Shown in pieces: positions 1 to 39,289 of a DNA stretch of 64,000 nt; position 1 is the stretch's first letter; each line of letters starts with the position of its first letter. A model generated the notes under the pieces. It saw only the letters and a program-made list of their open reading frames with translations. It searched no databases and was not told the DNA's origin. The position numbers were made by a program, and so were the translations under genes. The stretch is from contig OZ020248.1 of assembly GCA_963971285.1 (NCBI GenBank), forward strand, positions 26,587,764-26,651,763, written 5' to 3'. This DNA comes from Astropecten irregularis. Lineage: Eukaryota > Echinodermata > Asteroidea > Paxillosida > Astropectinidae.

Positions 1-63
1 TTGAGCTAATCTTGAAGCAAATTGTTCTAATAAATCGTCTGAAATGTCTTTGACTTTTTCCAG

Positions 64-6057
<5,994 letters not shown>

Positions 6058-10376: not shown

Positions 10377-13300
10377 TTAACCATTGTTGTTGTTGGTCTC
10401 GAGACTGGTCTTGGTCTTGGTCTTCTTGACTTTGGTCTTGGTGCGTCGTACTTTCTGGTCATGGTATTGACTTGTAGGCCTACTCATTGGTCTTGCTCTT
10501 AGTCTTTTCTTGTACTCGCTGGTCTTGGTGTCGTGGCGGCTGGTTTCGACTTCAAAACTGCGATTAACTGAAAATTCGGTCTTTTCTGTGGACAGAATAG
10601 CCGTATCGTGCCTGCTTCTTCCAAGGTACATACCTGCAACCGATAAAATCACCCAATACAAATTACTGTGTTTCTGCCCGGTGCTGGAATCGCACGAAAA
10701 AGATGTTTATGCAGTACACTATAGCCCTGCTCCCGTGTCTGTTCACGGACAGACAACGGGATGGATTTCACCAAACGCATCGTAACTTACCATCAATCGC
10801 AGGACTTATGATGTATTATATCCCTACGTATAGGATACGACGGGTTATCCTTCGTAACTCGAGTTACGATCGATCGTAGGGCTTCGTGAAATCGACCCCA
10901 ACAAACAAGCGGACTGACAAACAAGCAGATAGACAGCAAGCCACAAAAATCAACCTGATATCAAAATTAAATCCTAGATATTGAAAGAAAACAAGGCTAT
11001 ACGAGCACAAAAAGTCACTCCGAACATCAATCAATCAAATAAACTCACCTCTGTATATCAAACTTTCCATGGTGAATGTCCCTCTAACGGAGCAATATTT
11101 TTCATACCAAAAGCGTGGATTCGGTGGAATGTTTGGTCCAGTCATATAATTCGGAAAGTCCTTTGTGTTAAAGAAAATTTAGAAGAATTGTTGAAGATTA
11201 TCACAAGAAGTATAGGTAGACTAGCACTTTATGCAAAATTGAAACGTCGACGCAATACAATTCATAGAAACTCAATAATTATATTCCCAGTGACGATGAA
11301 AGTTAAATTTTGCTGCAAAACACTTTTCAAAATGGCGATGAAAGTGCCATCAAAATTGGTGTTGACCTTTTTCAGAAAAGCGATGAATGACAATGACATT
11401 TGTGTTTTAGTGGCTAATTTTTGCATGTTTGATTCGGTAATGCGAAAACATGACGTAAATAACAAAAGGCAACCGGGGACACCGCAGTAATGACGGATGG
11501 TAGCCTATGTCGTGCCGTCGGATCGGTATATAGTACATCTGTCACAGAGGGCGCTGTTTGCTTGTAAAAAGTACATTATTTACAATTCCACTACAAAATC
11601 TGTTTTTGGTGTGGTTTTGTTGCATTGACGAAATGAGGCTTGAGGCTATAGGCTTGGGATTTTATTTTGCCTAAACACCATTTTGTATCCTTAGTGGCGA
11701 AGCTGGAGCCATTCTTCGATTTGGTCATAATGGCACAGTATTCTACATTTTATCTCCATACTCACCAGGGTATCAACAACCCCATTGGCCATTGTGCTTG
11801 TAGCTACGGTGTCTAAACGGTCACCCGTTTCTGAGCTCAACGAAAAGGCTACAACTTGTCCCTCAGAAGGTGATCCGCCGCCGCCATACGTGTACCTGAA
11901 GAAACTGCCTTTGTATGAAAACAAACATTCAGATATCAAAGCGTTAATTATTAATTATTGTGAGTTCGTTTAACTTTGGAAGTGTAGGCCTATATTTTGA
12001 AGGCATCGTCTTTCTAATACCTTCTTTCTCTAAGAAGTTTTTTGCCGCGGTACGTTCTTATATACTGCAAATTATCAGAGTAAGTGAACGGCAAAATAGC
12101 GTTTGAAGGAAGAATGCCGGTGCCGGCAAAATATCCCCTGGCTTTAACTTTAATTTGTAGCAAAGAGCTTCATAATTTACTCAACAACTGACCACACACG
12201 AGAAATGGGCGAAGGATTCCATATTACTCTTTGGATTTTGAGTGTCTTGATATTGAAGTTCATTCAGCTGTGGTCAGTGCACTGGACAGTGGACAGTGGA
12301 CATCTGCACAACTATCTGCCTGTGGCCCGATTGTCCGGACTTGACCGTGCCTGTGCCGAGTCCATTCTGCACGGTGCACGGTGTCACCGCTATGCCGGAC
12401 TCATGCCAACTTGACCGTGTTTGCATGGCCATCTTCTGGCCGGATAGCTCGCCCAATTCCCCGGTTCGTGAGGGTCTTCCGGTCTGGACATCAAAACGAA
12501 CTCTAGTTGGGACTTCCAACCTTGGTCGACAATCTGAAGCCCAGGATTCCAGTCAAAAAGACTTAAAGGTAGGCGTATGCCCTCTTACCATGTTTTATAG
12601 CTGAATGTCTCTTCGTACGTGTTAATCATAAATACGCACAGCTAGTATATCCTGCTAAATTTATTCGACTTGTTTAGGCGTAGTCTGTGGTTTCTGCGGT
12701 TGTGGAATTGTTGTGAAAGTTTTTGTGTGATTTCTACTTCTAGGATTTTGAGTGACTACGGCAAGTTCGTTGTTCGTTTGCTTGTTGTCGTGACCGCGTG
12801 TTTTTCAGTTCAATGACTTTTCAGCAACCGCTGCACACAGCCTACAACTTCGAAGCATTTTTGTTTTCTCAAAATGAACCTCCATTTTTAGCAGATACTT
12901 TTTGTATAAATGAAAAGTTTCTGCCTTTAAGCTCGAAAGAATAGTTAGAAGACCCGTTTTCGTGTTACCAAAAATATGTAGGCCCACTAAAATAAGGCAT
13001 GCAGCGCAGCCGGAGCCGAACGGGGCATGCATGTGACCGGTAAGTTAGATAATACCATAGATTTAAAATAACATTCCAAAATAGTGCACCACCAAGAGTT
13101 TGCAATGAGTTGGCCAATCACAATGCGCAGAATCTGCCTACCATATCCAGACGTGCATATGGGGTGAAGACCAGTAAGGTCCAAATCAGCTCATTTATAT
13201 ACCCTCAAAATCTTTTTTAATAAAATCATTCGCTGGGCCATACTCTGGGCAAGTCTTGTACAGAAAATGGATGGAACCCACTATATAGAGTGTACCTTTT

Positions 13301-16300
13301 TGAGCCTGGAACCAGTCAACATGGGCGTTTTCAAGGTATTTTCCTTTGGATGGACTTTTCTCAAAATGTCATTGGTTATCCGATTAATTTGAAATGAAAA
13401 TGAAAATAAAATTTTTCAGCTTTATTTTGGTGTATCTGAGAAACTTCTGAGTATTGTAATTATGTTAAATTGGCCATTTAGCATGGAAGCCTATGGAAAA
13501 TGATTTAAAGGTACAGACATAACAGATTTACCTAGATAACTTACAGGATATAACGATGGTGATGGATATAGAAACATACCGTTAACATTTTTTCTGCATG
13601 CTGTATTTATTCAGAAAAGAGTAAAACCAGTGACCAAAAATATTTTTGATTTTTTAAAGATCAAAAATAAAATACAAAAGACTTTCTAAAAAGGTGGGTA
13701 CCACATAGGACTGAAAATTTTACAGATGACTGTTACTGTATCTTCCTTGATATTTGTGCCCATGAATCTGCATAATCTTCGACAAAAACCAAAGTATGAT
13801 ATTACCTTTAATGGTCTGCACCCATTGGGTTAACAAAATGACCAACGCAATTTATTGTAAACTCTTGGTGGCGCACTATTTGGAATCGCCCATAATTGAA
13901 AACAGTCGCTGAAACAATGTAAGTCAATTCACATACTACGTTTGCCTTCGAAGGGAACAAACATCGGCTTGTTTTTCTCAATTGTGAGATAAAGTTGCGT
14001 CGTTCCGTCAATAAAGATATCGTAAGGTGCATCTGATCGATACTGATAGCTGAATGGACCTTTGGAGATAGGCACTTGGGGCATGTCGAATGTGTTGTTT
14101 GTCAGCGAAGAAATAACGTAGACTTTCGGGAAACTCTCTGAAACAAACCAGAATAACGAATGAATCATACCTTTCTAGGTCAATGACCTCCTAATATTAT
14201 TGGCTGTGTTCGCGTAGAAGTTAGAAACCTTCATGAATATAATTATTTGTAATGGAGTTAATTTACGACTGAATAAAGATTCGATGACTATTGCATGGTG
14301 ACAATTGGTATGTGTTTGCGGAAACACCATGTAAGAATCATTCGTACTTTTGCACTTCTATTTCGTTCGCACTTCTCGTAAGGTGTCTATCTTTATCTAA
14401 GTACGAATTCTTCTTACCGTTTTGCCTTAAATTGCATACTATGAAATGCACTCTAAATAATGTGGATGTAGTCGATCGAGCAACACCATGCGTTGCGTCG
14501 GAGCTTGAGGGTTGTTCGATGTAAGCTAGACGATCGATAATCGATTGATTGATTGATTGATCAATTGATTGATCGATCGATCGATTGTTTGATTGATTGA
14601 TTGATTGATCAATTGGTTGATCAATTGATTGGTTGATCGATCGATTGATCGATCGATTGGTTGATTAATTGAATAATGATCAATAGATAGATTGATCGAT
14701 CGATTGATTGATCGATCGATCGATTGATTGATCGATCGATTGATTGATTGACTTACTGATTACCTTTAGTGAAAACTTGAAAGATGATCCACTTGAAGTT
14801 CTCTTGCTTTTCCCGCTTCACCGCCTGTTCAAGAAACCAACAATAATCACGGCACTGTTCAGTCATTCTCCAAACCTCTCCCGATCCCACCATGCAGGGC
14901 TTGAAATATCAAACACAAACTATAGTCCAGCACCTAAAAACAGGCTAGTCAAGGAAGATTGACTAGTGTTTCCAACATTTTAAACTAGTCTACCTCGCTC
15001 GACTAGTTTGAAATACAGCTTGACTAACATGAACTAGTCGGCAGCGCTAGACTAGCCAGCCGGACCAGTTTAAGGCTAGTCAAGCACGTGGCCTACTAGT
15101 TTAGGTTTTCAGTGTAGACATGTTGATTTCATGTGATCAGTGATTCTCTTGTTTGATTTTGATGTTTGAAAGAAAACTTAACATTATTAAATTGTTCAAG
15201 ATCATATCACCAAAATCATGCATATGTGTATACGAAATAGACCAGGAATAATCTGTATTGAATAATTATTTTGTTCATGCATGTGCATTTTTTATTTCGT
15301 GTCAATCAGATTATGTTAGGAACATGCATTGGTTCACGTGTATAAAAGGACTTTCATAATCATTAGTATTCGTTTCCTTTGAGCAGTTTTGGTATGACCA
15401 ATTTGGTATAAAATCATTTAATGATCATAAGAAAAAGAAGATAAAAAAGGGAAAAAAAGAAAAGAATAAATGATAAAAAAAAATTAAAAAAAATAAAATA
15501 AAATAATGGTCTTATGATCTATCTGCTGGCTAATTATTTTAATTTTTTAGTTCTCCTGACTCACCAGAAGGAGGTTTACCCGGGAAGTGTTTCGGAGATG
15601 ATCCAACAGAAATTGAAGGTCTTTCCCCTCAGTGCTTATATCATTCACTGTCAGCAAGATGTCATCAGTCCTTATACAGAAAAACATGTGGTTGGAAATA
15701 TATTATTATAGGTATCGCGAGTGACAGAGCTGAATATTAAGATTGTTCGAAATGGGAATCAGCAAAGTTTGGGCTATTTCGACTATTGCCACGTTTTTAG
15801 AACTATAGACTTGACTTTGTCTCGATTACTTTCATGGATTCAAAGTTCAAATTTTAGACATGAATTCCTTTTACCTGAAACCGGCAGAGTAAGCCAGGCC
15901 GTTTTCATTGACGTCTTGGAGCACAAACTTGCCGTCAATATCCTTCAAGGCTGCACCAAAATCCACATGTTGGCCCGGTGCTTCAGAATTGGGAAGGAAT
16001 ATCTCCTAAAGTCAGAGGATTGCAATAAGATTATCACATTATTGTCAACATTAAACACAAAATAAATATAAGGTTGATATTTTCATTCAATAACAAAATA
16101 ATGCTGGTCTGACAGCTAGGTTTTCCACCTGTGTAAATTCCAGATGCAACTCTGCCTGGATTTTACAATCAGTTAAATCCTTTTTCTCGGAGTACTAAGT
16201 TCATTTTGTTTGTAGTAATCAAATATTCAGCTTTTATTTATCTTACACCCGAACAACATTGCCGATTTTCAACAAAAAATCTACAGAAAATATCAAGAAA

Positions 16301-16692
16301 ACGTCGACCGAAATAATACGCTTGTTTCCTAAATTTAACAATGCACATATATCTTCTACAATTTGACTTTTTGAAATCAAAACGTTGAATAATCTTTGGA
16401 TTTATGTTCACATTATTTTATCCTTCATGGGGTTGATTTCGCGAAGCCCTACGATCGATCGTAACTCGGGTTACGAAGGACAATCCATCGTATCCCACGT
16501 ACGGCTGCAATGTATGTATTGCACTATAGTCATAGTTTACGATGGATAGTAAGTTACGATGAGTTTGGTGAAAGGCATGTATACGGTATAGTCTATAAAA
16601 CCACTGGAAATGTTTCGTCATATAAGCCGCATGTATGTGGTATCAAAAACATGTATACTGACATTATCAGGTGTGTTTGATCCGGTAGCCAT
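10377..16692 (-). CDS. PDZ plus beta-trefoil (IL-1/IL-18-like) protein, copy A
   Basis: Eight exons on the minus strand: 16663-16692, 15875-16005, 15565-15670, 14764-14824, 13937-14137, 11766-11908, 11049-11160 and 10377-10633. The total is 1041 bases, 346 residues. Each exon was found by homology with the plus-strand modules at 30-39 kb, and phases join cleanly. Exon 1 gives MATGSNTPDN. Residues about 11-89 read as a PDZ domain: a carboxylate-binding-loop equivalent VDFGAAL, core GKFVLQDV, then AGFRTDDILLTVND, where the usual Gly-Asp is Asp-Asp. A short linker AVKREKQENFKWIIFQVF follows. Residues about 110-288 are the trefoil-like part (NNTFDMPQV, APYDIFID, FWYEKY, TMESLIYR, MYLGRSRHDTAIL). 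Residues 289-346 are a Lys/Arg/Thr-rich tail read through a GGTCTT-type simple repeat. There is no signal peptide or membrane segment, as in IL-1 cytokines. The function is inferred; the gene model is stronger than the family name. Confidence 0.75.
14530..14757. repeat. GATT/GATC tetranucleotide microsatellite
   Basis: About 228 bases of mixed GATT, GATC and AATT words lie in intron 3 of copy A. The array ends only about six bases from the minus-strand splice donor of exon 4 (donor at 14762-14763), so length changes act very close to that splice site. Confidence 0.9.
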
Positions 16693-17739
16693 CTTTGTTG
16701 TTTGAAGACAAACGCCCTCTGTCGAACACATTGTCTGATAAAAAAAATGAAAACAGAAAGGATTGAGAAAACATCGAAAAGAAAACCGTAAACAAACAAC
16801 ACATCGACTGGTTCAGATTAATAGGTTGATTTCCAAACACAAACTTGTCAAATCTTTCCTAAGGTCAATTTATAATATTATTTTTTCATTTTTTAAAGGT
16901 GGTATCATACTTTGGTAAGAAACCAAAACAGAAATGTTCACAGATTTACGTATAACTTTCAGGGTATGAAAATGGTGGTGGTAGAAACATACCGTTAAAA
17001 AATTTCCGCCTGAAATGATGTATTAATCCAGAAATTAGTAAAACAACGACCGAAAATCTTTTAAAAGATCAAAAATAAAAGAGAAAAGACTTAAGAAATA
17101 CTGTTCCCTTTTTTCACTGTTTTCTCTAAAAGAGGGCACCGTATGGGACTGACATTTTCACAGATGACTGTTACTGTATCTGTCTTGATATTTCTGCCCA
17201 TAAATCTGTATTTCTTTGATAAAAACCAAAGTATGATATTACTTTTAAACTAAAACTAAAAGCCACAATTTCCCCCCAATGAAAATTAAGTTGATGAAAT
17301 ACTTCACATGATTGTTAATAAGTGTTAATAATTACACTGACACTATCAAAAGCACCTTATGCAGGATCAGTCGATCGTCCACACACACCCTCATGGTAAA
17401 GAGACATGGTATCCTTAACTCATGTACTTTTGTGAGTCTGCAACAGAATTTACCGGTATTCATTCTCAAAATAACTAGCGGGAAATTCCTCGCATAATTG
17501 TAAAGATTAATTCCTCGAACTTTCATTTTCCATTGTTACCTTCCGTTACACAAAAGACACGGACAATGCTCCTTGATGCCATTTGGTGATAGTCTTTTAT
17601 GTATTGTTGTCCAACCAATGATGATTATTCATAATTCACAATAACCCGGATCTGAACGAAACGGCCGGCTGCCTTAAATGGGCAACTTTCCGACGATGGA
17701 CGGTAGTCTCAATGTCATTAACATTGCAATATGATTCTA

Positions 17740-18197
17740 TACAGGGTGCCCCCACCAAAAAACCAAACCGCAACACTTGTGTCGAGAACTATTTTATGAA
17801 AATTAAACTGTTTATCACTTCAAAATTCAGATATGTGATACAGCTATGTCTTGGCTATCATCGTATAGAATTTGAGCAAAATTGGACTAAAATAATAAGT
17901 GAAAAAGTAAGACTGAACTACCCAACCTCAAAACCCGATTTTCATCTTTCTTTCATACACATTATGTGTGTATTGATCACTATGCGTGCTATATCCTTGC
18001 ACATTTGTTTGTAGGAAGTACTCTTTCAATTGGTCATATTTTCGCCAATTTCAGCCCCAATATGCTTGCATTTTACATGGTGATAGCCGAGACATGACTG
18101 TATCACATATCTGAGCTGAATCTTGAAGTGACAAACAGTGAAATTTTAACATAATGGTTCCCAACACAGTGTTGCGTTTGTTCTGGGACACCCTGTA
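17740..18197. mobile_element. Fold-back element with TACAGGGTG termini
   Basis: The ends are inverted copies starting TACAGGGTG, flanked by TA on both sides, and the two arms (about 17740-17880 and 18060-18197) are imperfect inverted repeats of each other. There is no transposase ORF. The TA flank and CAGGGTG-type end suggest a Tc1/mariner-type MITE, by analogy only. Confidence 0.65.
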
Positions 18198-18340
18198 TAG
18201 TTTGAGCTGTGCGGGGATTTGAGTATAGGATAATGTTTGTAAACTGAAGCAATACATTACTAGATTCCTGCAATGATATATCACACAGCCCTACCCGGAT
18301 ATAGACAAGTGTAATCGGGAAACAATTCGCATATCGTCTG

Positions 18341-18540
18341 AAGTGGCGTCGCCAAGGGGGGGCCAGGGGGGGGGGGCACGTGCCCCCCCTGGAAAACCTC
18401 GTGCCCCCCCCCGCGTGCCCCCCCCCATTTGAGATTTGGGTTGGTGAACAAAAATATAATATATATTGTAGCGGTGCCCCCCAACAATTGCTAGTGCCCC
18501 CCTTGTGCCCCCCAGACTCAAAACTCTGGTGACGCCACTG
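18341..18540. mobile_element. hAT-type MITE with 8-bp target duplication
   Basis: The element is bounded by ATCGTCTG at 18333-18340 and again at 18541-18548. Its ends are inverted repeats (AGTGGCGTCGCC / GGTGACGCCACT). The interior is dominated by G and C runs. The 8-bp duplication and the CAGTGGCG-like end are the pattern of hAT superfamily elements. No coding capacity. Confidence 0.85.
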
Positions 18541-19012
18541 ATCGTCTGCTATATCCATCCTTCATCATAAACAAACATTCCTCGGAAATCGCACTTACCT
18601 TTTTTGCCAAAAATCACCGCGGGAAACGAGTGCACATAAGAGGAAATATAGCATGTGTGAGGACGTGTGAAATACAACATGTACAACAATGTTAAAATGA
18701 AACCAATATGGCGGTGTATACACATTCAAACACGTACTAAACAAATCAGGATTCAGGAAAGAAAAAGAAAAAAATTATAAATTAATTTCCCACAAACCAC
18801 TGGTTTGGTATACCAGGTAACACTCACAATACAATACAACTCACAACCGTGTAGAATGGTTTCGGAGAGTGGGCACATTTTGTATTCAAAATGGCTGTCA
18901 CGCTTAGCTGAACTTAATAGGGCCTAAGTTAAAAAGAAATGGTAGAAATTAGACGGTTTCAACAAAATAGGAAACGCGACATTATGACGCCACTGTATAA
19001 TAGTAACGTGGT

Positions 19013-22889: not shown

Positions 22890-25800
22890 ATGGCTACCGC
22901 GTCAGACACACCCGAAAATGTCAGTATACTATAATGTTTTGATACTTTTTATTTTTTATTTTTATTTTTATTTCTTATTTTTCGCTTATTTTTCTAGTAT
23001 TTATTTATTTATTGATTGATTTATTTTTTATCTTAACATCTCATCTTACAGTTTGTGTAAATTAATTCATATTGTTGTATAGACTGTATTATATAACACC
23101 TTAGTAGATCCTTGTCACTTGATTGGAGGATTGTATGTCACGTGATATTTGATAAATACACATAGAGTTATATTATGAAAACTAGAGTGCGCACTCACCG
23201 TGCCCTGTGTGACGCGCTCTCGGCTACACATGGGAATCAAAGATGGCGTCTCTAAGTGGGCAAAACAGTGTAAAATGCCCGGATGTGCTTATTCTTTTAC
23301 ACAGTGCGCTCAGAAAACGCATTACTAAAAGTCGATTTTCTCCAATCTTTTTGGGAGTTTCGGCCTTATCGTCATGAATACTACTCATCAATAGTTTGTT
23401 TTTGGTATAAACTAGTGCAATTGAAAAAAATTGCAATAATTGACAAAAAATCCTTTACATTAAAACTGCCCCTTTCCACTCGAATTCAGCTTTAGTTTAG
23501 GATATGCCACTTTTCAAGTCGAGGGCCGGTCATAACTCGATCGTGCGTCGATAATATCGTTTCTTTAATTGTCAGTCTTAATCTGAAACAAGGAGGGTAT
23601 CGGGTTTTTATATCTTGGGTTACGTGCATGTATAGTTTAGAGAAATGTGGGATGGAACTGAGGCGTAACCGGTATTTGTTGTACTCGATTACAACTACGG
23701 ATCCAAGTACATGTATAATTAAATCAGCCACAAACTTGACACAATGCGGAAACTTGAGATTTTCGAATTTTCTGCAAGTTCTGAATACTGTGTGCATTTT
23801 TTCCACTGTTTTCTCCAAAAGTAGTCACCTTATGACACTGGAAATTTTCACAGATGACTGTTGCTGTTTCTTTCTTGATATTGTGACGGGAATCACGCCC
23901 GACGTGAGACGAAGGGCGCGCCGCACGAGACCGAAACCCCGGTGCAACCCACGCAAGGATGCGGCCGGAGACGGAGGTTCGTTTGGCTGAAATATACCGC
24001 CTACAAAAATACCCGACACACCGCCGGACAGGATCCACGACCAGGGTACTGGACGAACGGGACAGACAACGGGGAGGGGTGTACAATTAATGACACGGGA
24101 ATAAATGTAAAAGGGGGGCAATGAAATGTAATTCTGCTGGTTTAATGACCCACCACCGAACAGCGTGGTGGGTGGAACTCTGTATGCATAACTAGCTCAG
24201 ATGACAATTAACAATAATCGCCTCTCTCTTAATTAAACTAGTGGTAATTAAACTACCTGGCCCCAATAGCCTCCAGTTATAATGCCTTAATTGGCACTTC
24301 CTTAAGCGCCTCTATATTTAACGATGCTTCCTCTAGCGCCAGCTACGCGAGCAATCGCCTCCTATCGTGCTAGTGTGGGCGGTCGCCTCTTGCGTCAACG
24401 CCAGTTATGCTGCTCCAAGTTTATAGCGCTCGTGCTATGTGGCGGTCGCCTCTATGCGTCAACGCCTCTGATAGCCGCTCCCTATGTGCGCTTCCTGTGT
24501 GGGCGGTCGCCTCTTGCGTCAACGCCCCTTATGCTGCTCCCTAGCGCCGGTGCTATGTGGCGGTCGCCTCTTTGCGTCAACGCCTTTATAGCCGCTCCCT
24601 AGGTGCGCTTCCTATGTGGGCGGTCGCCTCTATGCGTCAACGCCCCTTATGCTGCTCCTTAAGTGCTGCTCCTATGCGATCGCCTCTCCAGGGCACACCA
24701 GCCATCGGCTGAATATGTGCCAGAGGCGATACGACGGCTTGTCCAAACGAACACACACTGGCCGCCAGGAGCGCAGCCCAAAAAGAGAGAGCGTGCGCTC
24801 CAAAAACTGGGCTTATAAAGCTTAGCCCGGATTCAAGCGCACCAATCACATCTTGTGTGCCGCGCATCGCGCGCGCAAATCCCGCGCACACGTACACTAC
24901 GGACGCAGGACAAACAACACTTTCACTTCTAGCGCTAGTAATTAATTGCACACTAAACTTAACCATGAGGGCGCCCGTCCGAGCGCAATTTCGTTACACA
25001 GCCTCCTTCTTTGCTTGACCGTCCCGGTAAAAATCAGCATACAAATCATAAATAAACTAAAGGAATAAGCGAGGGCCAAGACCTCTTTCAAAAACTGAGG
25101 CGTTTCTTAACACGCCCCTTAAACTATTGCAACTCGATGTTCACAAACTCCTTTAACTCTTAACAGGTTGAACATTCACCACAATTGTTTTACAACTTTG
25201 ATCAACAATTCGGCAAGTCCTCCTAGGCGAGAGATGGAATATGCTAAAGGCATTGTCCAGCTCGCCCCCATTTTTAAACCACCTTGACAAGATAATCACA
25301 CTTCCAAAATTCTGGAGTCCTTAAACATTTAAGAACAAATCAGCAACTTTCATTAAAAGTTCGGCAGGCCTTCCGCGGCAACAGTTGAAACAAGGAATAA
25401 TAAAGTTCTGTTCAGTTCCGAAGCTCCACATCGTAAACTCGTTCTTCCTCGGCAATGACACAGTATGGTCCCCTGCTCGTAAGTAGTGGTCTTCTTGCGT
25501 TCCATCACCCGGACAACTCGGTCGCGGAGGAAGGGGGGCAAGCTCCATGGGCCAGAATGGACGCTGTCACCACCGGTTCACTCTTCTCTGGTTCCGGCGA
25601 CGGTTCCCTCTAAGTGGCTGGTTGGGGCTCCCCCTCCAGCAGGGCAAGGGAAACCGGGGAGAGGGACAACTCGGCTGGCCTCTCCTGGTTATCACCTTGC
25701 GTGAGGCCGGACGGTTCTTCCTTGGGCGGCTCCACAGGTTCGTCGTCGTAGCTGGACAGCTCCAAATCGGCCCGGAGTTGGTCATCGATCGGTAGGGCAG

Positions 25801-28800: not shown

Positions 28801-31800
28801 TCATGGAAAAGTGCTCAGGTACTCGCACTCATAATATTCGTGGTAAAGTTCGTTCTCATGCCTTCTCACTGCCAAATGAACAAAGATAATAGACTACAAG
28901 AGATGAAAAAGAGATAATTAGAGACACCATCAACGTAGGGCTGGAAGGCTCAGTTGGTAGAGCGCCTGTATGGTATTCAGGAGGTCACCGGTTTGAATCC
29001 CGCTCCAGTCAATTTTTCTTTGTTCACTTTTCAATGACAATACATTTTTTGTAAAATCTAGTTAATAGTTATTTCTTTAAATCTTGCATCTGAGTGACAT
29101 CTTGCATCATGAATCTTGAGTTATGTCGCCATTCCTGAAATCTGGACCTGTATTCTTGAAGGAGAGTGCTAAAAAATGAAATTGAAAAAAAGAAAATGGA
29201 TTTCATCTTTTGGAAGTTTTCAACAGACTTGAATATAAATCTCTTTTGGGATGATTTGGTGGTCCTGAAAAGGGCCATTTTGTTGGAAGTGGTAACCCTG
29301 AAGAATCTTCCATCTTGAAACGTCGATCTTGGATCTTGAATCTTGAAACTTGGATCTTGAAACTTGGAACTTGAAACTTGGATCTTGAAACTTGGATCTT
29401 GAAACTTGGAACTTGAAACTTGGATCTTGAAACTTGAAACTTGGATCTTGTATCTTATCTTTAATTTTGCATCTGGAATTAGTAAAAATAAATTTGTAAA
29501 AAGAAGTTAGTTTAAAAAATAATTAGTTACAACGAATGAAATACGGTAGTCCATGCGATGTTCCGCTTCATTGTGCCGGTAAATAAAGGGCAATACTATG
29601 AGGAAGGTGCTGGTGGCAACTTTTCAAGGATGATCGATCTGACCTGTTTCTTTCATTATTTGATCATTTCCTGAAGTTACCTGGATGATTTCAACCTCTG
29701 ACATGATGCGGGAACCAGCTTTGCCGAAGTTAACATCCAGACCTAGATCCAGATCCAAATCCAGATCCAGAGTCGACTAAGTAATAAAATACACAATATA
29801 GCAGCACAAATTCCTATAGCCTTTTTATAGGCCTGACATAATATTATTATTTGTATTAAAGTAACGTTAACCCCTTCTTACTCCATGAAAAATCGACTAA
29901 ATTTAATGATATTTGATTAGACTAAGCAGTACTACTCACTTATAAAATGAAACGTTGTTGGTCTTATTACTCCGATTCCTGCAGCCAAAGGCTGCGAAAT
30001 TTTTGGGCATATCAAGCCATAATGCAAACACACGTCACAGCCAAACGCGAAACGTAAACATAACCCCATGAATGCCCATTTTTGCCCACTTAGGAAAATG
30101 GCGGCCAATTCTTCAATTCGTGACGCGACAAATCAGAGGTGCGCCCTCTAGTTTTTTAATATAACTCTATGTAAATACACCAATTCATGGCTTACGTCAC
30201 AACCGTTGAAATTTGTTCCATCCACCGTGCATTTTTGGTGCCATCCGATTTGTACCATTGCACGCCAGGGACTCTTATACGTGATTGGTCAAGCGGCGTT
30301 CCATTTATTTGTCACTGCGCGCGCGCGTACGCGTTGGCGTGCAACGCGCGATACTGGAACAGGCCATCTGTCACCTCATGAAATTATTTTTACCATTCTA
30401 CTCATAAACATTCATTATTTGTATACTATTGTATAGATATAATGTACATATGGATCTGTTAATTTACTTGCCTGTCTGTTGGCTGTCCGAGTGTTTGTTT
30501 GTGTGTTTGTGCTTGTTTGTTTATATTAATAACCATCCTGTAATTGGCTATTTGTATTGCTGTTGGTCTTGGTTGATAAATAAATAAATAAAATAAATAA
30601 ATACTACATAATTATACCTGCGGCTTATATGACGAACCATTTTGTGTGATTCTATAGACTACATAATTCAATTAAGGATACAACCATTTCGTTTCCGTCA
30701 GCAGATTTTTCTAAAACGTTTCATCAGTCTTTCCCGTTGCTTTGGGTGGTTTTTTTTCGTTGACATTCAGTCATTTGGACCGTTCTTATTTTATCTTTGA
30801 TTGAAAATGTAAACCTTATACTTGTGTTTAATTTTGACAATAATGTGATAATCTTATTGCAATCCTCTGACTTAAGGAGATATTTCTACCCAATTCTGAA
30901 GCACCGGGCCAATATGTGGATTTTGGTGCAGCCTTGAAGGATATTGACGGCAAGTTTGTGCTCCAAGACGTCAATGAAAACGGCCTGGCATACTCTGCCG
31001 GTTTCAGGTAAAACGAATTCATGTATAACATGTGAACTTTGAATCCATGAAAGTAATCGAGACAAAATTTAAGTATAGTTCTAAAAACGTGGCAATAGTC
31101 GAAATAGCCCAAACTTTGCTGATTCCCATTTCGACCAAACTTAATGTTCAGCTCTGTCACTCGCGATACCAAATTACATGTTTCCCACCGCATTTGTTTC
31201 TGTATAAGGACTGGTGACATCTTGCTGACAGTGAATGATATAAGCACTGAGGGGAAAGACCTTCAATTCCTGTTGGATCATCTACGACGTGACAGATGGG
31301 CAAACCTGCTTCTGGTGAGTCAACATCTGAATTAGACGGAGGAAATAAACTGTTGCAAACTGCTGAACGAACACAAGAATAATGACCCGAAGATGCTTGA
31401 AATAAAGAGCTAGGTCCACGTTACTTCTCAGATGCTAGAATGACCCAAATTCATGAAAATACAAGGAGAAAGAATGAAGAAATAAAATTATTACAAGTCA
31501 AGCCACAGACAAATAAGGGAAAACAGAATGGGCCGGCCGAAGATAAGGCAGAGGCAAACGTACAAATACAAATCCTGGTCGTTCAAACATTATCCCACAG
31601 TAAATATCTGTTCATTTCATTCCCTAATGGAGAATAACTGAACATCAAAACCTTATCATTGCTTGAACAGGCAGTTGAGCGGAAGCTGGGAGATGAGGAA
31701 ATGGCGATATTTAAGTGGATCATCTTCAATGTTATCGTTCAAGGTAAACGAACAAAAAAGAGATGAATAAAAATAAACCAAATGCGTGAATTTATAATGT

Positions 31801-34800
31801 TCTCTCATTTTGAAATACGATTTTTGTAATCTTGGGGTATGGTGAACTCGTCTCTAGTCTTTTAAAGGACGTATTCAACGTTGGTAAATGTGACAGAACA
31901 GGACGCATACGTTGTCTAATCCAGCAACATGAAATAATAAATCTGTGAAAATTTGAGCTCAATCGGACATCCGAGTCCCAAGAATTAAGCGAAATAGCGG
32001 CTAAATTTTTCATATGAAAAATAAAGAAAGATTTTTTGATCTTGCCAAGATCAAAAATGTTTGTGTTTGGTTTTAATCTTTCTGGATAAATACACCATTT
32101 CAGGCGGAAATATCTTAACGATATGTTTCTACCAGCACCGGAAGAGAGGAAGATCAGTAAGTTGACTCAGTTGTTGTGCTTCTGTTTTGTTTTAGATGGA
32201 ACACCAAGAGTTCACGTTGTTCATTCCCTTGAAAATGATACATTCGATATGCCGGAAGTGGACTTCACAGGCAGCGTGGAATTCCTTGGAGTTTCCCCCG
32301 AACCATTCGACATCTTCATCGATAGCAATGACAAACAGTCATATCTCAAAATCGACAAGAATAAAGTCGAATTTGGTTCTTACGACGATAACAGTAGTAA
32401 GTGTTGTAACTACCGATGCTAAATGGTCGATTCTTGTATATATAAAAAAAAGAGACCAACAAAACTGATTTCCAGAACACCGTATACTCAAACATGTATA
32501 ATTGTCTTATGTTGGCCAATGAAAGACAACTTAACCCACATTAATACTTACATACGGACTTGAAAACGATAAGATTTGTTCCCCTTGGTTCTGCGGAATA
32601 AGTGTTGGGTTTAGGTTTTGCTTAATATCACACTTTTATGATCTTTTAAAAGATCAAAAAGATTGTTGGTCGTTGTTTTACTAATTTCTGGTTAAATACA
32701 CCATTTCAGGCGGAAAAAAAATTTAACGGTATTTTTCTACCACCACTACCAGCTTCATACCCTGTAAGTTGTACGTGAATCTGTGAACATTTCTGTTTTG
32801 GTTTCTTACCAAAGTATGATACTACCTGAGGAAAGACGAAATATAATTAGATATTTCTTGTGTTTTTATGTTACATTCAGGTAAGTTCTACCTGTACCAT
32901 TATTCCGGTGGAGATCCGTCTAAGGGCAATGTAGTAGCTTATTCACAAATCAGGATGGAGCCTTCCGCTGATAGCAACAATGATAAAACCTGCTTTGCTG
33001 GTAAAGATGAAACGAAAGTGAAAGCAAAGGTGAGAACATACACTCATTGATACGAAATCAGTATTACTACATACCTATTATGATTTGAATTAAAGCTCTG
33101 TGGTTTGAAAGATTGTATAATATTGAACCAATTAGCCAAAGACGAAATCTGTCTGTGTTTGAAGTTTACAAGAATGTGCAATTGAATACCTTATGACATA
33201 ACATCACGCACCACGAACGCGTCTAGCTATTTGGCGTAGTTGGTCGAATTTTGATATGGTATTTGGTGTCGTATGGTAGAGATCTCTTAAATTAAAGGTT
33301 TACTGTTATCACAATTGGGAAAGGGGTGAAAGTGTTTTAAAATTATTGCTTAAAGGTAATATCATACTTTGTTTTTGTCAAAGAAATACAATATTCATGG
33401 GTAAAAATATCAAGGCAGATACAGTAACAGTCATCTGTGAAAATTTCAGTCCCGTACTGTGCCCACTTTTTGAGAAAACAGCCACAGTATTTCTTAACAC
33501 TTTTCTCTTTTATTTTTGGTCTTTTAAAAAATCAAACAGATTTGTGATCGTTGTTTTACTAATTTCTGGATAAATACACCATCTCAGACGGAAACAAATT
33601 AACGGTAGGGGGCCTATGTTTCTACCACCACCATCTATACCCTGTAAGCTATACGTAAATCTGTGAACATTTTCTGTTTTGCATGGTTTCTTACCAAAGT
33701 ATGATACTACCTTTAAGCAGCGGTTAGGCATGCGTACAGAAAGCCAGATGACTAATTATGTTGATGTCGCTTTGTCTGGGAAAGTTGGTTTGAGAATTAG
33801 CAGGGTTATGGGGATGGAGGTGGGTATAGGGCAGGGGGAATTAATAAGTCTCTCTAACGCACCATTCTTGATCACCTATGTCATCAGTTTAATAATTTTC
33901 AGTATTATCATCTCTTTCATTTTTATACTTTGAAGGATTTTCCAAGTTCCATGGTCGGATCAACCGTTGAACCGAATCCACGCCTTTGGTATCAACATCT
34001 CGACCATGACAGTAATCTCCATACACTGGAAAGTTACACAGAGAAGGGTGAGTCAATGTTCATAAAGAAATTCTGTTCTGAAATTTCTCATGAGCATATT
34101 TTCTCCTGGGTATACTTATATAGCTCCTCTTTATTGACATTCACATAGAGATTCGTTTGTCATATGCACGTGACACGTTTCACTCATTGATTTACAGGAG
34201 TTTCATTGGGTATCCATGAGGATCACACACTGTAAAAAGAACAGCAACAAATCGCTTTTAAGTATTTAAAGTAATTATTTTTGGTCAGGTTAGCGCTTGA
34301 TTGCGAATTGGTGAGCATTGAACGTGGTTTGGTATCAGTTGATGCCAGTGAAATGTTGGCCTGCACCCTGTGCACATAGCCATTGACTCATCATTATTGA
34401 TCTAGTTATGGTATAATACATGATTGGTGAAAGTCACCACGTAGCACCTTTGTCTGATCCAGCATGTACATGATAATTATGATAAATCTGTGAAAATCGG
34501 ACATCTGAGTCACTAGAAAATATCGAAAACCCGACTCGATTTTTGATTTAGAACATTAGGAATGGTTTTGATCTTACCCCGAGATCAAAACTGGTTTTGG
34601 TCTTTGTTTTACTTATTTCTGGATAAATGCCCCATTTGAGGCGGAAATATTTCAATGATATGTTTCTACCAGCACCATCTTCATACCCTGAATGTTATAT
34701 ACATTAGTGAACATTTCTATTTGGGTATATGTTACCAATCTTGTACTGTACCTTTAATAATCATAGATTTATGTCAGTCCCATTGGACACGTTCACGCCA

Positions 34801-35022
34801 TACGCCACTGTGACTCAAGTCCGAGTCTGTGTCTTGGAAAACATTACTTGAGTCAGACCCGAGTCAGACTCCAGCAGCATTAATATTATCCGATTTCTTA
34901 TGTTTACAGATCGGTTCCTTGGGAAGGATAACAACAATGACAAAGCTATCCTGTTAGAGACAGAAACGTTGCTGACAATTGCACTTAGTGGTACCAGAAA
35001 GGATGTTAGTATACATGTATAG
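22890..35022 (+). CDS. PDZ plus beta-trefoil (IL-1/IL-18-like) protein, copy B (first module)
   Basis: Exons: 22890-22919, 30877-31007, 31209-31314, 31671-31743, 32196-32396, 32881-33029, 33936-34047 and 34910-35022; 304 residues if the last exon is read to TAG. The start exon encodes MATASDTPEN and ends at a GTCAGT donor, exactly as in copy A. The PDZ domain spans about residues 11-89 (VDFGAAL loop, AGFRTGDILLTVND, LQFLLDHLRR). A linker with FKWIIFNVIV follows, then the trefoil-like region from about 114: RVHVVHSLENDTFDMPEV, PFDIFIDSND, KFYLYHYSGGDPSKGNVV, RLWYQHLDHDSNLHTLES and DRFLGKDNNNDKAIL. The order beta-strand, YxxxGG, F/LWY, T/MLES, then FLG resembles IL-18 and IL-36/37. Those families have a (F/I)FF or FLFY strand, then FES or LES, then a W/Y-F-(L/I) strand. 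Intron 1 (about 8 kb) holds the LTR retrotransposon nest. The last exon may instead splice at 35004 into the next module. Confidence 0.75.
23882..24998 (-). repeat. LTR (3' LTR in element orientation)
   Basis: 1117 bases, TG...CA ended on the plus strand. Positions 24377-24690 carry five units of about 60 bases sharing GCGGTCGCCTC and GCGTCAACGCC. Two unit types alternate, one ending with CTTATGCTGCTCC and the other with ATAGCCGCTCC. Confidence 0.93.
25003..25014 (-). other. Candidate polypurine tract
   Basis: Read on the minus strand, AAAGAAGGAGG lies three bases from the 3' LTR. That is the expected place for the plus-strand DNA primer of an LTR retroelement. Confidence 0.6.
25610..25990 (-). 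CDS. Proline/acid-rich ORF in the LTR element, function unknown
   Basis: 126 codons, rich in Pro, Glu and Ser (PPPPLSPALP, EPVEPPKEEPSG). No zinc knuckle or pol motif is seen. It could be the tail of a degenerate gag region, in a frame different from the 179-codon ORF. Its status as a real gene is uncertain. Confidence 0.3.
   Translation of the reverse strand: MVVQPLEDAQTWGEAIQFLQQERAARTPEATAPAVGIALTEPPPMPAVHPPQTSASVPPPPLSPALPIDDQLRADLELSSYDDEPVEPPKEEPSGLTQGDNQERPAELSLSPVSLALLEGEPQPAT
26343..26882 (-). CDS. Coiled-coil gag-like ORF of the LTR element
   Basis: 179 codons starting MANNDLVRGAGG. Residues about 18-70 have heptad-like spacing of Leu, Val and Ile with many Glu, Asp and Arg (VHLRDEVDSLRIEV, IRYLQKRMADLEEL), so a coiled coil is likely. 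An Arg-rich patch TTRRRRQEA follows at about 91-99. The position near the 5' end of the element and the coiled coil suggest a reduced gag or RNA-packaging protein; no CCHC knuckle is present. It starts 33 bases after the preceding small ORF. Confidence 0.5.
   Translation of the reverse strand: MANNDLVRGAGGDMVASAHEELVHLRDEVDSLRIEVQHKDDLLQDLYEENECQEARIRYLQKRMADLEELWQSTPWSGDARVINPRQAASTTRRRRQEATPGNLATPVKDWTWEAQHREEATMAGMGFPFGNPIKPWVSWPDVPEETRTDLEAAGAKSPPPACVMPRESRTQCLSSWER
26915..27118 (-). CDS. Small single-pass membrane protein ORF in the LTR element
   Basis: 67 codons; the start lies about 50 bases downstream of the primer-binding site. Residues about 3-25 are a strong hydrophobic segment (GVLFGLLVASLAILGIILCV), followed by a basic stretch (SETRRKLQRINQLANR). 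Predicted single-pass membrane protein with the positive side after the segment. It is the first ORF of the transcript. I do not recognise a family, and chance occurrence cannot be excluded. Confidence 0.4.
   Translation of the reverse strand: MGFSLGVLFGLLVASLAILGIILCVQLKQSGKVQALWRAASETRRKLQRINQLANRTHVAVILQGFE
27171..27189 (-). other. Primer-binding site complementary to tRNA-Leu
   Basis: The plus strand reads AATCCCACCGCTGCCACCA. This equals the 3' end of animal tRNA-Leu (AAG/UAG family) plus the added CCA. On the minus strand it therefore starts TGG two bases after the 5' LTR, the standard primer-binding geometry, and it fixes the element's orientation. Confidence 0.88.
27192..28303 (-). 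repeat. LTR (5' LTR in element orientation)
   Basis: 1112 bases, aligned end to end with the other LTR. It lacks one A near 27434 and four bases near 27502, and has C instead of A near 28266. It carries the same five-unit array at 27682-27995. Confidence 0.93.
28930..29037 (+). mobile_element. tRNA-derived SINE
   Basis: The body imitates a tRNA: acceptor halves GGCTGGA / TCCAGTC pair, the A box is GGCTCAGTTGGTAGAGCG, and the B-box-like sequence is GGTTTGAATCCC. The T stem is poorly paired, and the copy continues into a shared tail containing TTTTTCTTTGTTCAC. Related copies sit at 43105-43200 (+) and 57250-57365 (-), so this is a dispersed SINE and not a tRNA gene. Confidence 0.75.
29310..29455. 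repeat. Tandem array of a 14-base unit (GAAACTTGGATCTT)
   Basis: About ten irregular units, with variants GAAACTTGGAACTT, lie inside the large inverted-repeat element in intron 1. Confidence 0.85.
33351..33716. mobile_element. Family 1 fold-back element (representative full copy)
   Basis: The ends are inverted repeats: TAAAGGTAATATCATACTTT at the left and its near complement (AAAGTATGATACTACCTTTA) at the right. The centre is an AT-rich hairpin. Other copies: 13505-13811, 16894-17248, 19183-19543, 20108-20333, 32630-32827 (part), 36466-36826, 39335-39671, 44856-45110 (part), 58215-58495 (part) and 60749-61110. No ORF is conserved, as expected for a MITE. Confidence 0.85.
34405..34759. mobile_element. 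Family 1 variant element (representative copy)
   Basis: It shares the right half with family 1 (GGATAAATACACCATTTCAG region, CTACCAGCACCATCTTCATA) but has a different left end (GGTATAATACATGATTGG). Other copies or parts: 3060-3340, 10099-10354, 22384-22746, 31861-32150, 37345-37704, 45941-47111 (interrupted) and 51463-51851. Confidence 0.75.
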
Positions 35023-35300
35023 GCCTACACTGTTTTGATACCACGTATGCCTGCGGCTTATATGACGAAACATTTGGAGTGATTTTATAGACTGTATAAT
35101 TAAGTTTAGGATACAACCATTTCGTCTTTTCCGTCAGCAGATTTTTCTAAAACGTTTCATCAATCTTTCGTGTTGCTATTGTTTTTTGTTGTTGACAATA
35201 AGTAATTTGGACCGTTCTTATTTTGTCTTTGATTGAAAGTGTAAACCGTATACTATGTGTATAATGTTGACAATAATGTGATTTCCTCCTCTGACTTTAG

Positions 35301-38300
35301 GAGATATTTCTTCCCAATTCTGAAGCACCAGGCCAACATGTGAATTTTGGTGCAGCCTTGAAGGATATTGACGGCAAGTTTGTGCTCCAATACGTCAATG
35401 AAAACGGCCTGGCATACTCTGCCGGTTTCAGGTAAAAGGAATTCATGTTTAAAATTTGAACTTTGAATCCACGAAAGTAATGGAGACAGATTCTAGTTCT
35501 AAAAACGCGGCTATAGTCGAAATAGCCCAAACTTTGCTGATTCCCATTTCGAACAAATTTAATGTTCAGCTCTGTTAATCGCGATACCAAATCACATTTT
35601 TCCCACCGCATTTTTCTGTTCAAGGACTGGTGACATCTTGCTGACGGCGAATGATATAAGCACTGAGGGGAAAGTCCTTCAATTCCTGTTGGATCATCTA
35701 CGACGTGACAGATGGGCAAACCTGCTTCTGGTGAGTCAACAGTCTGAATTTGACGGATGAAATAAACCGTGTTTGAAACTGCTGAGCGAAGACCAAAATA
35801 TATGACCCGAAGATGCTTAAAGTAGCTAGAGCCCCTCGTTTACACATTTCCACCGTCTTTTGCAGATGCTGATATGACCCAAATTCAAGAAAATACACGG
35901 AGGAATAACGAAGAAATGCAAAATATATAAATTACGACAAGTCAAGCCTCGGAAGAATGAGGGAAAACAGAGTTATGTTTGGCAAATGTCCCAAATGCTG
36001 GTCGTGTAATCAGAATGAAACATTATCGCAATGATAAATATCTGTTTATTCCATTCCCTAATGAGAATAACTGAACATCAAAACATTATCATTACTTGAA
36101 CAGGCAGTTGAGCGGAAGCTGGGAGATGAGGAAAAGGCGATATTTAAGTGGATCATCTTCAATGTTATCGTTCAAGGTAAACAAAAAAGAGATATACAAG
36201 TAATAAACTGCTGCAAACTGCTCATCGGCCGAAAAATTACATTAGCTTTGAGATAGGAGGGCCTTACGCGTTTCAATCCTAAAGCAGGATCTTTCTCAAA
36301 GGCTATAAAAAGAAAGATCCTGCTTCGATCGAAACGCGTCAGACCTCCTAAAATAAGAGATAAATAACAGTAAACCAAAATGTTACCAAATGCGTGTATT
36401 TAATGTTCTTTCATTTTGATACTGTATATGATTTTTGTGATTTTCGGGTACCTTGTCTCTAGTCTTTTAAAGGTAATATCATACTTTGGTTTTTATCAAA
36501 GAAATACAGATTCATGGGCAGAAATATCAAGACAGATACAGTAACAGTCATCTGTTAAAATTTCAGTCCCATACGGTGCCCACTTTTTGAGAAAACAGTG
36601 AAAAACAGCCACAGTATTTTTCTGAAGTCTTTTCTCTTTTATTTTTTCAAAAAGATTTTCGGTCGTTGTTTTACTTATTTCTAGATATAAATACACCATT
36701 TCAGACGGAAAAATTGTAACGGTATATGTTAATTCTACCACCACCATCTTCATACCCTGTAAGTTATACGTAAATATGTGAAGATGTCTGTTTTGGTTTC
36801 TTACCAAAGTATGACACTACCTTTAAGTAGAGGGTAACGCGTTGTGGTATTACAGGCCAGTCAAAGATACCAGCTTGATGTGTACGATTTTCATAAGAGA
36901 GGAAGATCAGTAAGTTGACTCAGTTTTTGTGTTTCTGTTTTGTTTCAGATGGAATACCAAGAGTTCATGTTGTTTATTCCCTTGAAAATGATACATTCGA
37001 TATGCCGGAAGTGCCACTTACAAGCAACTTGGACTTCTTGGCAGTTTCTCCCGAGCCATTCGACATCTTCATCGATAGCAATGACAAACAATCATATCTC
37101 AAAATCGACAAGAAGAAAGTCGAATTTGGTTCTTACGACGCGAACAGTAGTAAGTAATGTAATTTGTTTGTTCTTGTTAAAAAAAAATGGGACCAACAAA
37201 ACTGATTTCCAGAACTCTTCATTCAGTCATGTATGCTGTCAAAAGAGAAGCCCACATTAAAACTCACGTGGAGACTTGATAACGACCATTTAAACAAAGT
37301 TTCCGTTTAGTCCTGCGGAACAGGTTTTTGGTTTAAGTTTTGCTCAAAGGGCATGTACAACATTGGTAAAGGTGACAGAACAGCTGCAGGCTGCTCATCA
37401 TTTGATTTGTCATGGAATAAAAACAAACCTGTGAAATGTTCAGCTCAATTAATCATTTGAAACTGTAGAAAACAGCGAAAAACTTTTTCCCGCCAAAAAT
37501 AAGGAATAGCTGTCTCAATTTTGATCTTTACAAGATCAATAATGTTTTGATGTTTGGTTTTACTCTTTTCTGGATAAATACAGCATTTCAGGCAGAAATG
37601 TTCACAGTATGTTTCTGCCATTACTGTATATATACCCTGTACATTATATAAACGTAAATCTGTGAACATTTCTGTTCGGGTTTGTTACCAATCCTACCCT
37701 TTAAGTGAGGAAAGACGAAAATGAATGTAAGTGGTTATTTCTTGTGTATTTGTGTAACATTCAGGTAAGTTCTACCTGTACTATTATTCCGGTGGAGATC
37801 CATCTAAGGGCAATGTAGTAGCTTATTCACAAATCAGGATGGAGCCTTCCGCTAAATGCAACAGTAAGACCTGCTTTGCTGGTAAAGGTAAAAAGAAAGT
37901 GGAAGCAAAGGTGAGTTAGCCTACATATATACACTCTTTGACACTGAACCAATATTAGTGCATACCTATTTGAATTATAGCTCTAAGTGGTTGAAACATG
38001 ACAGACTGGAACCAATAGGCCAACGAAGTAACCCGCCTGTTTTTGAAGTTTGCATGAATGTACAAGAATGTAATGCTTTAAACATAACATAATACACAAG
38101 AAAGATTTGAGGCTTTGTATGTGGTGACAATATTGGTATGTTGATCGGTTTGTAGAAACACCATGTAAGAATCGTTCGTACTTTCGCACTTGCGTTCGCA
38201 CTTTTCGTAGGTCTCAGCGTTTCGACTAGCCTGCTCTAGTCATCATCAGGAGACCTGACTAGAGCAGGCTAGTCGAAACGTTGAGACCTTATGAAGTTAA

Positions 38301-39289
38301 GAGGAGTGCGAACGAAATAGAAGTGCAAAAGTAGTAACGATTCTTACATGGGACGTGTTTCCGCAAACCAATCCACATAATTACACAACACGAAAGTCTT
38401 TTTTGGCGTGGTTGTTCGTAATGGTACATGGTGTCGATTTCATCAGACTCATCGTAACTTACTATAAATCGTAGGACTATATATAGCTATGATGCATTGC
38501 AGCCCTACGTAGGATACGATGGTTCATCTGTTCTTAACTCGAGTTACGATCGATCGTATAGGGCTTGGTATAAATCTAGTAACCAGCGCAGTCTAGGCAC
38601 ATACATATAGGTACGGAAGCCAGAACAAAATCGCTATGTCTGGGAAAGTTGCTTAGATATAAGGGTTTGGGATAGGGGTTGGGGCAGGGGGAAGTCTGAC
38701 TCGGCAAGTATTAGTATTATTGTCTCTGTTATTTTCATATTTTTTTTGAAGAACTTTCCTAGCTACATGGTCGGACAAAACATTAAACCGGATCCACGCT
38801 TTTGGTATAAGAAACGCAACTTGAACACCGCTCTCGACACCCTGGAAAGCTACAAAGCGAAGGGTAAGTCAATGTTCATCAAGGAAATCTGTTATAAAAT
38901 TTCGTATGGGCCCATTTTTGTTCTGGGTACTTACGTTACATAGCTTCTTTTCGTGGACATTCGCAAAGAGATTCGTTTGTATGATGCACTAATTGACACA
39001 CTTTATTCGATTGATTGACATGGGTTTCATTGAGTTTCCATGAGGATCATACTCGAAGTCATGAGCCTTGAAATAAACATCAACTTCATTAATTATCCCA
39101 TTTCTTATGTTTTCAGATCGATACCTTGGGAAGGATAAAAAGAAGGCCATCTTGTCCAAAACAAAAACGTATCTGACAATTGCACTTAGTGGTACCGTTA
39201 CCATGAGCGGAGAGGACGGGGACCAGGCCAAACCTGATGCATGTGAAGCTGCTGGTTGCTGTAATGGTACCAGCGAAACAGGACAATAA
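35301..39289 (+). CDS. PDZ plus beta-trefoil (IL-1/IL-18-like) protein, copy C (second module)
   Basis: Exons: 35301-35431, 35625-35730, 36104-36176, 36949-37149, 37765-37910, 38752-38863 and 39117-39289 (TAA at 39287). Lengths and phases equal those of copy B except three bases fewer in the fifth. The PDZ part reads EIFLPNSEAPGQHVNFGAAL, then AGFRTGDILLTAND. The trefoil-like part contains NDTFDMPEV, EPFDIFID, KFYLYYYSGGDPSKGNVV, RFWYKKRNLNTALDTLES and DRYLGKDKKKAIL. Its tail differs: an acidic, Cys-containing end (EACDA-like region with AAGCCNGTSETGQ). No separate start exon is visible in the 278 bases after copy B's stop. The first exon begins in phase 0 and can accept the donor at 35005 inside copy B's last exon. 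This is therefore either the second half of a two-module gene (612 residues in all) or a gene using the upstream start exon by alternative splicing. Confidence 0.72.
38125..38380. mobile_element. Fold-back element with hammerhead-like core
   Basis: Two inverted arms carry CGAACGAAATAGAAGTGC-type and GACTAGAGCAGGCTAGTC sequence. On the minus strand, CTGATGA is followed by a stem GACTAG/CTAGTC and then GAAAC, the order of a hammerhead ribozyme core. Related copies are at 21770-21920 and, truncated, at about 14290-14400. Confidence 0.6.
38434..38576. mobile_element. Family 2 fold-back element (representative copy)
   Basis: About 145 bases, almost fully self-complementary around GATCGATCGTA / TACGATCGATC. 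Complete copies start or end with TCGATTTCACGAAGCCCTA-type sequence and GACCCC. Other copies: 10757-10902, 16433-16577, 20340-20490, 45110-45235, 56352-56503 and 61380-61519. Confidence 0.85.

Follow-up and report, generated by a model that had tools for sequence, protein, structure and literature searches.

Did ligands of the interleukin-1 (IL-1) family exist before the vertebrates? This question is raised by a 64,000-nucleotide stretch of the genome of the sea star Astropecten irregularis (GenBank assembly GCA_963971285.1, contig OZ020248.1; the whole stretch is hereafter the window, C11:26587764-26651763 in our contig numbering), which carries, between its positions 10,377 and 39,289, three modules, A, B and C, that each join a PDZ domain to a shared C-terminal region. 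IL-1 ligands are stated to be missing from invertebrates, in which IL-1 receptor-like receptors are present, in the available text of two reports (PMC9020223, PMC9382457), one of which adds jawless vertebrates to the animals without such ligands; IL-1-like activities described in invertebrates are said there to be without molecular characterisation (PMC9020223), and cytokine-like proteins are described in a moth (PMC11106378). Judging from sequence, we put the probability at roughly three in four (about 0.77) that the modules belong to leaderless echinoderm precursor genes of the IL-1 superfamily in which the PDZ domain serves as a prodomain.

The modules of the window are part of a larger family. 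In the 475.7 Mb assembly (168 contigs), protein searches found at least four further modules, namely D (298 amino acids) and E (316 amino acids) at 11.40-11.43 Mb on C11, F on C1 and a divergent module, G, on C19 that first appeared as a weak match (E 0.394); the genome search scores its best candidates only, and family counts are lower bounds. Against a profile built from the other six modules, the four C-terminal exons of G score 28.2, 20.2, 20.6 and 11.6 bits; against one built from the remaining PDZ halves, its PDZ exons reach 13.9 and 9.9 bits; and its introns 4|5, 5|6, 6|7 and 7|8, placed by eye, have phases 1, 1, 0 and 1, the same as in the window modules. Module F keeps the C-terminal exons; no PDZ domain was found for it in a genome search that listed copies from A to E only and missed the divergent PDZ of G as well. 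One further locus, L021, which came up at E 4.1, reached 6.7 bits with the module profile and was not retained, and two peptide patterns searched for in viral contigs yielded no confirmed relative. Profile matches confirm the N-terminal half as a PDZ domain: the scores of the Pfam model PDZ_6, for which the cut-off is 27 bits, are 27.3 in B and 30.0 in D and, below the cut-off, 25.9 in A, 23.6 in E and 21.0 in C. The protein start, MATxSxTPxNEIFLPN, holds no signal-peptide-like stretch on inspection of the translations, which involved no predictor, and the predicted product is a leaderless precursor with a prodomain, the arrangement of the IL-1 superfamily. The original prediction, made from the letters of the window alone, had described three modules with a PDZ domain and a common C-terminal region and no signal peptide, and our gene models, their matching intron phases and the PDZ_6 matches bear this out; the motifs that it quoted are indeed present in the C-terminal regions.

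We regard as supported the homology of the C-terminal region, about 140 residues that run in B from FDIFID to the LTIAL strand, to the IL-1 beta-trefoil, the trefoil itself being predicted. In a scan of the 24736 families of Pfam-A, the Interleukin-1/18 family PF00340 (cut-off 25 bits) was the sole family listed for D besides three PDZ models, at E 0.072 and 13.2 bits over residues 239-288, which contain RFWYEKLNNRRSTYTLESYKDKDWFLG; since IL-1 had originally been chosen from that same motif, we take this E at face value and not as a one-model p-value. A profile built from hand-entered sequences of nine human members of the IL-1 family was scored against each module and 500 shuffles of it (for A to F the program reported 307 to 400 of the 500, and the remainder were counted as lower). 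Modules D, E, B and G scored 12.1, 9.1, 6.1 and 5.2 bits with none of the shuffles as high, followed by A (1.7 bits, 5 shuffles), F (1.3 bits, 21) and C (-0.3 bits, 49). As a yardstick, each human member was left out of the profile in turn: IL-33 then scored 5.5 bits (4 of 300 shuffles as high) and the other eight 35.1 to 109.4 bits (0 of 300), which places four of the seven modules in the range of IL-33 and makes the family about as distant as IL-33 is. Profile-to-profile alignment with hhalign gave a local score of 19.3 for six modules against the IL-1 family, reached by 2 of 200 column shuffles, and adding the divergent G raised it to 21.4 (0 of 150; highest shuffle 18.2), lowered the local P from 0.028 to 0.013 and widened the match from query columns 116-166 to 79-170; the global score with G, 11.4, also exceeded all 150 shuffles, by a narrow margin (highest shuffle 11.3). 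Global alignments of B and D are collinear across the domain with IL-1B, IL-18 and IL-36G, and not with IL1RN. Conversely, a profile of the modules was matched as well by few of 300 shuffles of IL-36G (0), IL-33 (2), IL-37 (3), IL1RN (4), IL-1B (11), IL36RN (13) and IL-1A (17), and a block resembling F.[FY]..[FL]ES..WF, in a pattern loosened after the modules had been seen, occurs in four of six modules and seven of the nine human members.

Gene structure points the same way. In IL-1 beta genes the coding introns have phases II, 0, I, I and 0, and the final three exons encode the twelve strands (PMC4880838); modules A, B and C contain the run 2,0,1,1,0 followed by one extra phase-1 intron (2,0,1,1,0,1 in all), with the putative trefoil in the last four exons. 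The chance of the phase run was about 0.013 in simulation under simple assumptions. Aligned with IL-1B, module B has its phase-1 intron in the codon of mature residue 39 and its phase-0 intron right after residue 85 (V85); judging from exon sizes, the human IL1B introns presumably lie in codon 42 and after residue 85, and the simulated chance of two positions within 3 residues together with the phases was about 0.0015, a value that rests on those presumed positions. The modules thus resemble the vertebrate family (IL-1 beta, IL-18, IL-33, IL-36) in being leaderless, in having an N-terminal extension, in their collinear profile alignment and in the IL-1 beta phases, and differ from it in the extra intron between putative strands b9 and b10 and in a similarity too low for curated models; these vertebrate ligands are not known to carry a PDZ domain.

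A closer counterpart exists in fish. Lumpfish nIL-1F combines a PDZ domain (IPR001478) and an IL-1 domain in one protein of 352 amino acids (PMC7144542), so that such a fusion is not new, contrary to the original prediction, and the available descriptions of fish nIL-1F agree with the sea-star modules in this pairing, putative for the IL-1 part of the modules, in a length of about 350 amino acids and in the lack of a signal peptide (PMC7144542, PMC4929537). According to the same partial accounts, the fish gene has seven coding exons in contrast to eight here, its IL-1 domain is recognised by InterPro in lumpfish whereas the modules remain under the Pfam cut-off, and no tandem double unit like the one formed by B and C is reported. 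Our comparison with nIL-1F is one of architecture and not of sequence; on that footing, the recurrence in an echinoderm of this rare fusion, with a putative IL-1 part, would be difficult to account for without shared descent. Homology to the IL-1 family, as originally proposed, draws its support from the below-cut-off Pfam model, the profile, shuffle and leave-one-out tests, the intron phases and the nIL-1F architecture, lines of which not all depend on one and the same motif.

Several results weigh against an IL-1 assignment. Pfam found no family match in the C-termini of A, B and C and did not list PF00340 for E, F or G, so that the family is listed for one of seven modules and there below its cut-off (13.2 against 25 bits); unrelated families appear at similar E values (PGM1_C, 0.091, on the PDZ part of C; AFOR_N, 0.11, on G), which leaves the E of 0.07 for D, taken alone, near chance. 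A search of the sea-star genome with PF00340 gave no match anywhere, controls included. The hhalign P values ranged from 0.0068 to 0.04 over 16 runs, the lowest, from a profile led by IL-18, being the best of many. The likeness to IL-18 that had been singled out at the start accordingly divides: the IL-18-led alignment is that lowest value, but as a single match to the module profile IL-18 is among the poorer (50 of 300 shuffles as high, with IL-38 at 41 of 300), and Smith-Waterman comparison with IL-18 gave nothing. The PROSITE IL-1 signature, which we take to be a pattern with a proline, was matched by none of six modules (G left out) and by only four of the nine human members; a pattern that five of nine human members fail to meet does not define the superfamily. 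Among solved structures, a search by sequence returned no IL-1 or FGF chain and one carboxylesterase (E 0.84), a silence that we do not count as evidence, since human IL-18 itself misses the other IL-1 family chains by phmmer. AlphaFold2, run on three-row alignments, gave no usable fold (mean pLDDT 33.7 for the whole module and 40.4 for the trefoil core), and Foldseek found no meaningful match for the trefoil-core model; the whole-module run left even the PDZ domain unfolded, which makes the low pLDDT uninformative. On the receptor side, a query with the TIR domain of human IL1R1 found nothing in the genome at E 0.01; a search with the TIR family gave 15 matches, and inspection by eye, with no Ig search made, recognised no Ig domain in the open frames of three TIR loci.

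The remaining points of this kind favour FGF1, and they sustain the alternative, improbable in our judgement, that the trefoil of the C-terminal region is closer to FGF than to IL-1 and is joined to PDZ in a leaderless, FGF-like intracellular or secreted factor. FGFs are likewise beta-trefoil cytokines, and the best of 15 Smith-Waterman pairs were those of FGF1 with B (score 47; 4 of 300 shuffles as high) and C (45; 2 of 300); the module profile scored FGF1 at 6.9 bits (0 of 300), equal to IL-36G, and the FGF profile reached 5.9 bits on D (1 of 500). Against these stand an FGF profile at chance for the other six modules (of 500 shuffles, 252 as high for A, 113 for B, 145 for C, 241 for E, 191 for F and 95 for G) and a module profile that fits other FGFs less well (FGF2, 8 of 300 shuffles as high; FGF19, 35; FGF9, 105). 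In hhalign, the local P of the six-module set was 0.43 for FGF and 0.028 for IL-1, and 82 of 200 column shuffles did as well as FGF; for the seven-module set it was 0.16 for FGF and 0.013 for IL-1, the FGF P values of that test being 0.16 and 0.79, obtained without shuffles. The FGF family is absent from the Pfam lists of the modules, the FGF1 exons (171, 104 and 193 nucleotides) imply phases 0 and 2 and not 1 and 0, and a PDZ-FGF fusion is not known. A clearly better match to FGF was named at the outset as what would overturn the IL-1 assignment; FGF1 taken singly scores well, and on these sequence comparisons IL-1 is ahead of FGF on most tests, not all.

About equally improbable is a second alternative, in which the PDZ domain is the working part, as a cytokine like pro-interleukin-16 or a scaffold, with a C-terminal domain that is unrelated and specific to the lineage. 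IL-16 has only PDZ domains and is not known to contain a trefoil; it shares with the modules the PDZ domain and the leaderless start, and both could be cut by caspases. PDZ is also the only domain above a Pfam cut-off here, and an annotated sea-star transcriptome includes, in its available text, a pro-interleukin-16 contig (PMC4503460), an annotation that the PDZ domain could attract. The IL-1 signal, however, is located in the C-terminal half, which F keeps with no PDZ found (in the same search that missed the PDZ of G) and which looks old and constrained: between A and B its dS is about 3 (3.0, near saturation) with dN/dS of 0.2, as against a dS of 0.28 for the PDZ half. Of the six pairwise comparisons among the halves of A, B and C, five give dN/dS values of 0.20 to 0.59, and the value for the C-terminal halves of A and C is not computable, dS being saturated. 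B and C likewise differ less in the PDZ half (dS 0.04) than in the C-terminal half (0.25); PDZ halves so much more alike than C-terminal halves suggest that the PDZ exons have undergone gene conversion or that the ligand part changes fast. Slightly less probable again is that the IL-1 resemblance reflects chance or convergence on a strand-rich pattern in some other all-beta domain of unknown function, for which one may cite sequence signals that all stay below curated cut-offs beside unrelated families at similar E, the lack of a usable AlphaFold2 model and motif tests not fully independent of the eye that first picked IL-1 from the same motif, but which the independent agreement of intron phases, nIL-1F architecture and a signal that gains on adding the divergent G argues against.

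The three modules form two genes and not three, if B and C are joined as they appear to be; every junction in our models is GT/AG. Gene A, on the minus strand, encodes 346 amino acids in eight exons from 16692 down to 10377: a start exon (16663..16692; ATG, MATGSNTPDN) with a phase-0 donor gtcagt; two PDZ exons bounded by splice sites, 2 (16005-15875) and 3 (15670-15565), together 15565..16005; exon 4 with the PDZ end and linker (14764..14824); exon 5 with linker and putative strands b1-b3, the strands being assigned by eye from alignments (13937..14137); exon 6 with putative b4-b7 (11766..11908); exon 7 with putative b8-b9 and the motif RFWY..TMES (11049..11160); and exon 8 with putative b10-b12, a basic tail that is partly simple repeat, and the stop (10377..10633). 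Module B, on the plus strand, has eight exons (22890-35004), of which the first (22890..22919) holds the start codon and encodes MATASDTPEN, exons 2-4 encode the PDZ domain and its end (30877-31007, 31209-31314, 31671-31743) and exons 5-8 the IL-1-like region (32196-32396, 32881-33029, 33936-34047, 34910-35004). Module C follows on the same strand with seven exons (35301-39289), three for PDZ (35301-35431, 35625-35730, 36104-36176), in frame with exon 8 of B, and four, ending in the stop, for the IL-1-like region that scores weakest with the IL-1 profile (36949-37149, 37765-37910, 38752-38863, 39117-39289). A and B alone have an additional phase-0 intron after the ten-residue start exon.

By eye, no start exon for C is seen between B and C, and exon 8 of B closes with AAGGAT|gttagt, whose donor continues in phase, across a phase-0 junction intron, into the first of the PDZ exons of C. 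The joined frame stays open for 612 residues, and B and C look like one 612-amino-acid gene with the arrangement PDZ-X-PDZ-X, X being the C-terminal region; left unused, the same donor leads soon to a stop (GTRKDVSIHV) and thereby to a single-unit product. The layout first proposed consequently holds for its three modules and changes in that two of them read as one gene and the family extends to D through G. The B-C intron (window 35005-35301) begins, by eye, like intron 1 of A and B, a resemblance which suggests that the double gene arose when a last exon recombined unequally with a first one. In gene B, the first intron contains a long terminal repeat (LTR) element (23882-28303) with direct repeats of 1117 and 1112 bp; a single substitution and two short indels separate the two, and ATAT flanks both sides; near-identical repeats and these flanks indicate a recent insertion.

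If the products are IL-1-type ligands, the precursor would be synthesised in immune cells with no signal peptide, and the N-terminal PDZ domain may act as a prodomain or intracellular anchor that holds the protein inside. Between the PDZ domain and the putative trefoil, six of the seven modules carry x-E-x-D (LEND in B, C and D, HEND in E, LEYD in F and IETD in G), and gene A has LTNN at that position. Human pro-IL-18 is cut after LESD, and the available text on fish nIL-1F likewise gives a predicted caspase-1 cut site. A protease, plausibly a caspase acting at x-E-x-D, might cut the linker, and the released trefoil could then bind a receptor of the IL-1R type, with Ig and TIR domains, as an agonist or, like fish nIL-1F, as an antagonist. 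The B-C gene would encode a double precursor that gives rise to two ligands.

The host is an invertebrate, as had been supposed, by the evidence of its mitochondrial code. COX1 lies on C168 (16335 bases), and over a 258-residue stretch of it AAA stands at conserved Asn in four of four cases, TGA at Trp in six of six, AGA at Ser in two of four (the others Ala and Gly) and ATA at Ile in two of four (the others Leu and Val; Met never), a codon usage that identifies the echinoderm and flatworm code (table 9) and with it an invertebrate genome. Frames resembling nad1 and nad2, recognised by eye, lie opposite in strand to COX1 on this contig, the arrangement of sea-star mitochondria, which makes an asteroid the most likely host. 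Two other COX1-like stretches were seen: L063 (C25:9951035-9951415), 72% identical with two internal TGA codons, is probably a mitochondrial insertion in the nuclear genome, and L064 (C131:32129-32881), a 552-amino-acid frame without stops at 39% identity to the animal query, is perhaps on a bacterial contig. Around the modules, genes named by eye are a type I regulatory subunit of PKA (window 1-6060), synaptogyrin (41945-45563), a G-protein alpha subunit with an unusual N-terminus (52736-60650, plus strand) and, beyond the last G alpha exon seen and on the opposite strand, a single-exon rhodopsin-type G-protein-coupled receptor (61700-62700, minus strand). Introns and intergenic DNA contain a dispersed repeat unit with AAAGTATGAT at its ends (for example at 33350-33720 and 36470-36830), and this ten-mer is found 17 times in the window, counting both strands together.

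As far as our searches show, the new parts are the occurrence in an echinoderm and the double unit, the fusion of PDZ and IL-1 domains being already known from fish; in the open literature, to which the search was confined (subscription journals and genome annotations lay outside it), we found no report of an invertebrate IL-1 gene. An IL-1-like protein was reportedly described from the sea star Asterias forbesi in 1986 (cited in PMC9020223), and IL-1-like activity is reported to have been purified from that species. We tentatively propose, at somewhat less than even odds, that the IL-1 family arose before the vertebrates as a precursor of PDZ domain plus trefoil, a form kept in sea stars and in fish nIL-1F; that the exons for the IL-1 beta prodomain, whose 2,0 phases equal those of the PDZ exons, are the eroded remains of that PDZ domain; and that the genes described here, one of them a double precursor, encode the ligands missing so far for the IL-1 receptors of invertebrates and are candidates for the Asterias forbesi activity. 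If this is true, an echinoderm ligand of IL-1 type would resolve the puzzle of a receptor without a ligand, would move the origin of the IL-1 family back before the vertebrates and would suggest what the IL-1 prodomain once was, and it would provide a gene with which the Asterias forbesi protein may be compared.

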